Below are positions 32,793 to 35,276 of a stretch of 64,000 nt of DNA, piece after piece. Position numbers and translations under genes: made by a program. The stretch's first letter is position 1; each line of letters starts with the position of its first letter. This stretch comes from Serratia symbiotica. GTDB lineage: Bacteria; Pseudomonadota; Gammaproteobacteria; Enterobacterales; Enterobacteriaceae. Under the pieces are notes generated by a model. It was given only the letters and a program-made list of their open reading frames with translations. It had not been told where the DNA came from and searched no databases. The DNA lies in the NCBI GenBank assembly GCA_900016775.1, contig LN890288.1:186001-250000 (forward strand), given 5' to 3'.

Positions 32793-33328
32793 AATTGAAT
32801 ATTGATATTTATTTTTAATATTAATATTAAATATTTAATATATTTTTATTTAAAATATATTATATAATAACATTAATTATAAATAATATAAATGTATTTT
32901 TATTTTAAAATAATTATTTTATTTATAGTTAATATAATATTAAATTATAGTTAATATAATATTAAATAAAAATTTTATTAATTTTATATTATTTATTGAA
33001 TACATAAATTATTATTCATAAATATATTACATTATATTTATTTTATTTTTAAATAATTAAAATATAAATTTTAATTATTTAAATTTGTTTTATTAAAAGA
33101 TAAAATAAATTATATTTTTTAAAATTAATATATTATGAGCATTTTTTTAAAAAATATTTTTATATTAATAATAATATTTCTAATTAAATATAAATTATTT
33201 AATCATTAATATTAAAAAATTGTTTTATTAATTTATAAGTTTATAAATAAAATTTAATTATTTTTAATATTATAAATTTTAAAATATTTAATAAATTTTA
33301 TATTTTTATTATTAATATTTTAATATTT
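32793..33328. other. Convergent spacer ruvX/cysJ
   Basis: These 536 bp are A/T-rich, between the 3' ends of ruvX and cysJ. In E. coli cysI and cysH follow cysJ; I see no trace of either on the minus strand here. The stretch includes an exact 22-bp tandem duplication at 32923-32966. Confidence 0.5.
32923..32966. repeat. 22-bp perfect tandem duplication
   Basis: Positions 32923-32944 and 32945-32966 are identical 22-base units (TTATAGTTAATATAATATTA plus AA). They abut exactly. Each unit contains a G, so this is more than simple A/T slippage. It lies in the spacer between convergent ruvX and cysJ. Confidence 0.85.
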
Positions 33329-34906
33329 TTAATAAATATTTTGTTGATAACGACATTGTAAATAAAGTTTATTTAAAAATTTTTTTGCTTGTTTAATATT
33401 TATATTTCCATATTTAACTATTATTTCTAATAATATATTTTCTACATCTTTTTTCATATAATTAGCATCTCCACAAATATAAATATAAGCACCTTTTTTA
33501 ATCCAATTCCATATTTCTTTGCCTTTTTCACATAATTTATCTTGGACATAAATTTTATTTTTTTGATCACGAGACCAAGCAAGATCAATATTAGTTAGTA
33601 ACCCTATTTTAATATAATATTGCCATTCTGTTTTATATAAAAAATCTTCAGTAAAATGTTGATTTCCAAAAAATAACCAATTTTTACCTTTAGATTTATT
33701 AATATTTCGTTGTTGCATAAATGCACGAAATGGTGCTATTCCAGTACCTGGTCCAATCATTATAATTGGTGCATTTGGATTTTTTGGTAAACGAAAATTA
33801 TTATTTTTTTGAATAAATATTTTAATATTATCATTATGTTTTAAGCGATTTGCTAAAAAACTTGATGCACTACCTAAATAAGTTCGACCATTAATATTAT
33901 ATCGTACTACACTAACAGTAATATGTATTTCATTTTTTGTTTGCATTTGTGAAGAAGAAATAGAATATAGACGTGGTTTGATAGGATTTAAAAGATTAAT
34001 AAATTGCTGAGCATTTAAATTTATTGGTTTTTGACGTATCATGTCAATAATTGGTGTATTTTTTATATATTTTTGAATTAATTCTTTATTTTTTAATAAA
34101 TGTGTTAATTTTTTATTATTTGAAAGAATAATATAATTTTTAACTATAAATTCAGTATTTTGTGTTAATTCAAAATAATTTAATAATGCTTTTTTTAAAG
34201 TAAAACTATTATATTTAATAGATATTAATTCATCACCTTTTAATGAAAGTAATTGTAATAATTCATTTATTAATATTGGATCATTTTCTAACCATATACC
34301 TAATGCATCTCCTGGTTGATAGATTAAATTAGAATTACTAATATCTATTTCAATATGACGTATATCTTTATTTGAATAATATCCTGTAATTTTTTTATTT
34401 ATTATTAGTTTTGCAATAAATGGTTTTTTTTTATTATATAATTTATTATTATATTGATTAATATTTATATTAGGTAAAATATTTACTAATTTTTTTTTAA
34501 TTAATTTTTGTTTTTTAAATATTTTGAATATTTTTTTTATCCAATAATAAATATATATTATATTTTTTATATTTAAATTATTTTTCTTTAGAAAATTTAT
34601 AATTTTAAATTTTAAAAGAATTTTATTGAAATATTTATTTTTTAATTGATAAATTTTTTTATAAAATTGATTACTAAAATTAAATATTATTAAAGAAATA
34701 TTATTTATTTTTTTTTTCAATAATAAAAAAATATATAATATAATATTTTCTTTTTTTTGTTTATTTTTTTTATTAATTACTTTATTAAAATAATTTAAAA
34801 TATATTTAAATTGTATTTTAGAATATTTATTAATAGTTATTTGTAAATTTTTTAATAATTTTAAAATAAGTGAAAATGAAAAGTTTTTATATAATTTAAT
34901 CGTCAT
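33329..34906 (-). CDS. cysJ: CysJ-derived NADPH/FAD reductase with deleted FMN site
   Basis: In E. coli CysJ passes electrons from NADPH through FAD and FMN to the CysI sulfite reductase. This copy is 525 residues against 599. Residues 1-46 match the E. coli N-terminus. About 74 residues are then missing, including the FMN phosphate loop (SASQTGNA) and TSTQGEGEPP. Residues 54-135 still align loosely with the rest of the flavodoxin domain but are Lys/Ile/Asn-rich and lack GDTSYEFFC. From about 160 on the FAD/NADPH half is well kept: RLYSISSSQ, GSASSFLANR, IGPGTGIAPFRAFMQQR, YICGDANYM. cysI and cysH are not next to it. It probably acts as an FAD-only NADPH reductase, but this is inference. Confidence 0.85.
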   Translation of the reverse strand: MTIKLYKNFSFSLILKLLKNLQITINKYSKIQFKYILNYFNKVINKKNKQKKENIILYIFLLLKKKINNISLIIFNFSNQFYKKIYQLKNKYFNKILLKFKIINFLKKNNLNIKNIIYIYYWIKKIFKIFKKQKLIKKKLVNILPNININQYNNKLYNKKKPFIAKLIINKKITGYYSNKDIRHIEIDISNSNLIYQPGDALGIWLENDPILINELLQLLSLKGDELISIKYNSFTLKKALLNYFELTQNTEFIVKNYIILSNNKKLTHLLKNKELIQKYIKNTPIIDMIRQKPINLNAQQFINLLNPIKPRLYSISSSQMQTKNEIHITVSVVRYNINGRTYLGSASSFLANRLKHNDNIKIFIQKNNNFRLPKNPNAPIIMIGPGTGIAPFRAFMQQRNINKSKGKNWLFFGNQHFTEDFLYKTEWQYYIKIGLLTNIDLAWSRDQKNKIYVQDKLCEKGKEIWNWIKKGAYIYICGDANYMKKDVENILLEIIVKYGNINIKQAKKFLNKLYLQCRYQQNIY

Positions 34907-35276
34907 AATAATATTTATTTCCTATTATGCTTAAAATTTAGATACATATTTAATGTTATTTATGATTTTTAATTTATTTTTAAAAAAAATATTAAATTTA
35001 TTTTATTATCATTAATAAAATATATAATTATTATATAAATAATAAAAAATTTTAAAAATATTAATTGAACAAAATTTTATTTATATTATTTGTAAAAAGT
35101 AATATAAATTATTTATTTTAAAATATACTTAATAAAAATTTATTTTTTATAATTTTAATTGTTATAGTTATAATAATTATTATTAATAAAAAAATATAAT
35201 AAATATAAAATATATTTTTATGAAAATAATAATTTATTATTTAAATTATAAATATTTTATATTATTTTTAGTAAAT
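34907..35276. other. Spacer between gltP and cysJ
   Basis: These 370 bp are A/T-rich, upstream of cysJ and downstream of gltP, both on the minus strand. The cysJ ATG is preceded in sense by AGGAAATAAATATT, a usable ribosome binding site. No coding remnant, G/C-bearing hairpin or CysB-like operator can be recognised. Confidence 0.4.

Follow-up and report, generated by a model that had tools for sequence, protein, structure and literature searches.

A CysJ protein stripped of its FMN domain as the probable NADPH:flavodoxin reductase of Serratia symbiotica STs

The cysJ-derived gene of the aphid symbiont Serratia symbiotica STs, located in the window (the whole stretch of 64,000 nucleotides analysed in this work), encodes a protein with a decayed FMN half and an intact FAD/NADPH reductase half (Table 1). 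Judging from sequence comparisons this protein is probably, with a likelihood of about 0.7, a stand-alone, FAD-only NADPH:flavodoxin reductase that has replaced Fpr and feeds IspG, BioB, LipA and RlmN. The genome, described as 0.65 Mb with 20.9% G+C for strain STs-Pazieg (LN890288; PMC5013485), consists of a single contig of 650,317 bp with a G+C content of 0.16–0.30 in 4-kb steps.

Table 1. Position of the cysJ-derived gene and its segments in the window, numbered from the first nucleotide
Feature	Position	Strand	Description	Basis
cysJ-derived gene	33329..34906	(-)	525 aa, ATG start; decayed FMN half and intact FAD/NADPH reductase half	ORF, domains, alignment
Residues 1–46	34769..34906	(-)	diverged N-terminal segment	alignment, shuffles
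Residues 47–156	34439..34768	(-)	decayed flavodoxin-domain remnant, 74 residues lost	alignment, stops, hydropathy, branch lengths
Residues 157–525	33332..34438	(-)	FAD-binding/connecting and NADPH-binding half	Pfam, near-invariant positions, PDB 1ddg alignment

When the protein was searched against the databases its best matches identified it as a CysJ. Two Pfam domains were found above their cut-offs, FAD_binding_1 (aa 158–350, 100.6 bits) and NAD_binding_1 (aa 383–488, 59.1 bits), together with the motifs RLYS (aa 312), GPGTGIAPFR (aa 385), SRDQ (aa 445), CGDAN (aa 478) and a C-terminal Tyr (aa 525). Flavodoxin_1 gave no Pfam match even at E ≤ 10; for the same domain the full-length CysJ of S. 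symbiotica SCc (G142) scores 107 bits and that of genome G029 104 bits. With the CysJ family (TIGR01931, PRK10953) the STs protein shares its best matches and the FAD and NADPH halves, which in the alignment are colinear with those of the relatives down to the last residue, but it lacks the FMN-binding flavodoxin domain, falls below both curated NCBIfam cut-offs (611.7 against 838 and 559.8 against 668.15) and belongs to a genome without CysI. The Fpr model NF008178 (PRK10926) was not among the 11 families matched at E ≤ 10. Among the matches listed (5 of 10) a search of E. coli returned ordinary cysJ only, and one scan of genome contigs found no relative.

The comparison of residues used an alignment of the STs protein with nine database proteins and 26 CysJ encoded by other genomes, with the CysJ of genome G016 as reference, and near-invariant columns were defined on 33 comparison sequences. 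This alignment revealed that 74 of the 77 residues 47–123 of the reference have no counterpart in STs CysJ, which agrees with an earlier, sequence-only reading of the same DNA in which the protein was found to be 74 residues short. The first loop (SASQTGN) is absent, the second has lost STQG and has KNKQ in place of EGEP, and in the third region GLGDTSY is replaced by an unrecognisable NFSNQFY; we take these to be the FMN-binding loops of CysJ. The observation that the FMN loop and the block TSTQGEGEPP are gone thus holds, with STQG deleted and EGEP substituted, and the reported loss of GDTSYEFFC and the decay of the rest of the flavodoxin domain are borne out by the third region and by the near-invariant positions, of which the remnant keeps four out of 16 (11 changed and one a gap) and the deleted block none out of ten. 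Residues 1–46, which had been said to align, do so with a score above 1000 out of 1000 shuffles but are strongly diverged, sharing 30% of 43 aligned residues with G016 and keeping one of three near-invariant positions; they presumably correspond to the octamerisation segment of E. coli CysJ. The remnant is degenerate, not random: none of 1000 shuffles matched its alignment score against the flavodoxin domain, and it retains the hydropathy pattern of that domain (r 0.63, residues 47–130). With its FMN site apparently lost, STs CysJ does not show the two flavin sites in one chain that characterise a diflavin reductase.

No in-frame stop codon occurs in codons 47–150 of STs cysJ (0/104), compared to 6–16 in the other five frames, and two sets of 5000 Markov simulations gave means of 12.5 and 12.6 stops without a single stop-free case, which confirms that the frame is held open through TAA-prone codons. 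The G+C content by codon position is 0.32/0.24/0.05 for residues 151–525 and 0.09/0.04/0.05 for residues 47–150. The N-terminal 156 residues would be kept open because the downstream half needs translation from the upstream start. An internal start downstream of the remnant is not favoured, as the first in-frame ATG after codon 1 is that of Met289; codon 63 reads TTG.

The FAD/NADPH half, described as intact in the sequence-only reading, keeps 81 of 85 near-invariant positions with RLYS and CGDAN present; in leave-one-out controls of 18 symbiont CysJ the FAD half ranged from 81/87 to 85/85 and the remnant region kept 15–16 of 16–17. One of the four changed positions is a near-invariant Asp (D602 of G016) that is Asn523 in STs CysJ, giving the C-terminal sequence RYQQNIY (residues 519–525, window 33332–33352) compared to RYQRDVY in the relatives. 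We take this site to be that of the catalytic Asp675 of cytochrome P450 reductase (CPR), and hydride transfer may therefore be slow. The four changes, including Asn523, count against the proposed role.

As the nearest non-identical homologue shows 52% identity, dN/dS was not possible and branch lengths were used instead, at the protein level, with the topology fixed from the FAD half, 34 taxa and residues 47–130 as remnant. The terminal branch of STs is ordinary in the FAD half (0.354, 11th of 34) and saturated in the remnant (5.294), resulting in a remnant/FAD ratio of 15.0 compared to at most 3.56 in the 33 other taxa. By this proxy for dN/dS constraint has relaxed in the FMN half alone, as had been expected, and selection on the FAD half therefore outlasted the loss of the FMN domain. 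Our reading is that drift has brought the remnant close to the mutational floor, that selection continued to act on the FAD half and on the open frame, and that the protein is likely to be made and its FAD half to matter. In the branch-length tree STs CysJ clusters with other AT-rich symbionts; this grouping is probably a composition artefact and the CysJ tree is therefore not to be read as a species tree.

When searching the whole STs genome for partners of CysJ, NIR_SIR (PF01077) gave no match and therefore no CysI, and neither CysH nor CysD was found, the sole PAPS_reduct match being TilS. A tblastn search (E ≤ 1) of the window and six other STs loci with five CysI and four Fpr proteins returned a single match, in which 25 aa of a CysI aligned to positions 2529–2603 of the window (E 0.48). 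This search showed no trace of cysI in the spacers flanking cysJ (window 32793–33328 and 34907–35276), which are long and extremely A+T-rich. We considered sulfite reduction in trans, in which FldA would act as the FMN shuttle, and rejected it as no CysI was found in the genome.

In most other genomes a search with NAD_binding_1 (PF00175) detects Fpr, Fre or both; in the STs genome its single match is CysJ, and among reductases of the NAD_binding_1 type neither Fpr nor Fre is therefore evident. FldA (174 aa) is the sole Flavodoxin_1 match in the genome; it passes the cut-offs of NF006737 and TIGR01752 but not that of NF006735, and its nearest FldA is that of S. symbiotica SCc (68% identity). 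The likely flavodoxin clients IspG, BioB, LipA and RlmN are all present, each over at least one family cut-off (RlmN passes TIGR00048, not PRK11194), and NCBIfam labels IspG as flavodoxin-dependent. The genome has thus kept FldA and likely clients with no FNR-type (NAD_binding_1) reductase other than CysJ. The suggestion that the gene is kept for an FAD-only job, such as reducing flavodoxin or ferredoxin, and not for sulfite reduction, is supported by these searches, proposed at the time for cysI, cysH, fpr and fldA.

To place these findings in a wider context, 392 genomes of the same family were sampled, 301 with a CysJ-type FAD domain and 91 without, and CysJ and CysI were surveyed in all genomes of ≤1.8 Mb with an FAD-domain match, 39 in addition to STs. 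A long CysJ frame (593–645 codons) and a CysI were found in 39 of the 39, leaving STs as the only one of the 40 with CysJ and no CysI. Shorter FAD-domain frames occur in some larger genomes, among the matches listed in G185 (462), G117 (501) and G398 (225), and also in G028 (381). A second or third NAD_binding_1 match was present in 33 of the 39 genomes; in the two where it was named, G021 and G173, it is Fpr, in G021 below the cut-off. Fpr is not evident in six of the 39, CysJ being the sole NAD_binding_1 match in G029 and G107 and being accompanied by Fre, according to the NCBIfam naming, in G142, G062, G198 and G346. S. symbiotica SCc (G142) and G029, where Fpr is not evident, both combine a full CysJ with CysI and FldA and plausibly resemble an intermediate in which the complete CysJ was already covering for the lost Fpr; CysJ may already do so in G029, G107 and G142. 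G107, with a full CysJ and CysI and no evident Fpr, gave no IspG match.

The reverse set of genes was found in G001, of the same genus and probably Ca. Ecksteinia (adelgidicola), where Fpr is present (396.4 against a cut-off of 390) and neither a CysJ-type FAD domain nor a CysI match was found. In a published tree Ecksteinia and STs fall in one clade (PMC8857208). NAD_binding_1 was also searched in 89 (9 + 80) of the 91 genomes without a CysJ-type FAD domain, and eight of these, all of 0.2–0.5 Mb (G126, G195, G221, G235, G295, G335, G369 and G394, of which G335 and G394 are fragmented into 50 and 100 contigs, respectively), had no match while one had only a 135-aa piece. The two single-match genomes of this group that were named with NCBIfam, G174 and G279, have Fre only. 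That CysJ and Fpr might exclude each other among genomes was rejected as proof, since some genomes without CysJ are also without Fpr. This absence of Fpr outside the CysJ-bearing genomes counts against the proposed role, and as Fpr is dispensable in some symbionts the argument for STs rests on the retained FldA and its clients.

In the proposed mechanism NADPH would reduce the FAD in residues 157–525, from which electrons would pass to a separate FldA as stand-in for the lost flavodoxin-like FMN domain, and CysJ together with FldA would supply IspG, BioB, LipA and RlmN in place of Fpr. We infer FldA as the acceptor, to which the lack of an Fpr or Fre match and the retention of FldA with its likely clients point, and since CysJ is the sole enzyme of its kind found for the step from NADPH to flavodoxin it has probably taken over the job of another gene. 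The losses would have occurred in the order Fpr, CysI and finally decay of the FMN domain. In E. coli, IspG is reported to depend on a chain of NADPH, flavodoxin reductase and flavodoxin (PMC12648460), and in human CPR the two flavin domains, FAD and FMN, are stated to cooperate at about 2% once separated (PMC3509625); against the necessity of such a reductase stands a report that NADPH reduces flavodoxin directly in vitro (PMC10470005).

Residues 156–525 of STs CysJ align with PDB 1ddg, the E. coli CysJ FAD/NADPH fragment of 374 residues, and the FAD/NADPH half can therefore fold alone; 1ddg is a laboratory fragment whereas its STs equivalent was left by evolution with a decayed tail in front. 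With Fpr (PRK10926) the protein has NAD_binding_1 in common as well as the proposed role, from NADPH to FldA via one FAD, but Fpr consists of ~250 aa and is another family, so that STs CysJ is Fpr-like in this role and not a member. Though descended from CysJ, the protein does not have the features defining CysJ and probably works like Fpr. Its shortening is already in print, as cysJ is named in a list of shortened, domain-stripped STs genes (PMC5013485), section 8 of that paper being silent on what cysJ lost or now does and referring to the INSDC annotation for details. The words fpr and flavodoxin are absent from its main text, and a full-text literature search, with sparse coverage of subscription papers, turned up nothing that describes CysJ standing in for Fpr; the role is a new reading not found in that literature.

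Other explanations for the shortened gene have to be weighed against this. The FAD half might have been retained to reduce free flavin or ferric iron, doing the job of Fre by delivering reduced FMN or FAD and not reducing FldA, which we find unlikely. The STs genome, with its single PF00175 match, is indeed without Fre too, and the E. coli sulfite reductase flavoprotein is said, by the title of a study by Eschenbrenner from 1995, to have flavin reductase activity; the retention of FldA together with IspG and three radical-SAM enzymes speaks against it, and the two roles are not exclusive. Quite improbable, too, is that cysJ is a gene in decay, its function gone and caught after partial loss: its partner CysI is missing, its N-terminal half has degenerated and Asn523 replaces a residue taken to be catalytic, but the 104 remnant codons hold no stops where ~12.5 are expected and the FAD half combines 81/85 near-invariant positions and an ordinary branch with a saturated remnant beside it. 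In addition, STs is reported to have hardly any pseudogenes (PMC5013485).

That STs CysJ would reduce ferredoxin or some other acceptor in place of flavodoxin is suggested by Fpr, which according to PMC6372839 moves electrons from NADPH to both flavodoxin and ferredoxin, but with the replaced domain itself being flavodoxin-like and FldA present this is very improbable. Relatives with a full FMN domain, which the sequence-only reading had regarded as a possible sign of an assembly error, do exist, all 39 other genomes of ≤1.8 Mb with CysJ having the 593–645-codon frame. That a normal cysJ was misassembled or wrongly sequenced is nevertheless hardly credible when the remnant beside the deletion has itself degenerated through substitutions, when an identical protein is carried by two database contigs (perhaps not independent) and when CysI is missing as well; published manual curation also lists cysJ as shortened in STs (PMC5013485).

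The preferred reading, a CysJ acting as flavodoxin reductase, leads to a broader proposal that we somewhat favour, namely a natural reversal of the diflavin fusion in which CysJ shed its flavodoxin domain and displaced Fpr, with the synthesis of biotin, lipoate and isoprenoids running via half a sulfite reductase. Diflavin reductases are considered to derive from the fusion of a ferredoxin reductase with a flavodoxin (PMC3509625), and STs CysJ would, if the reading is true, represent the undoing of the event thought to have created them. Loss of a domain would then have turned a pathway-specific enzyme into a general electron-supply enzyme, and biotin synthesis would rely on a protein whose annotation is sulfate reduction. 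In a metabolic model of the cedar-aphid consortium, S. symbiotica (strain SCc, not STs) is assumed to provide this vitamin to the host (PMC5702781). A lone cysJ in a reduced genome calls for caution before sulfite reduction is inferred from it. Regarding CysI in other small genomes, that of a 0.4-Mb genome has two NIR_SIR matches, the second of which (G124:C1:276140-276529) extends across one in-frame TAA.
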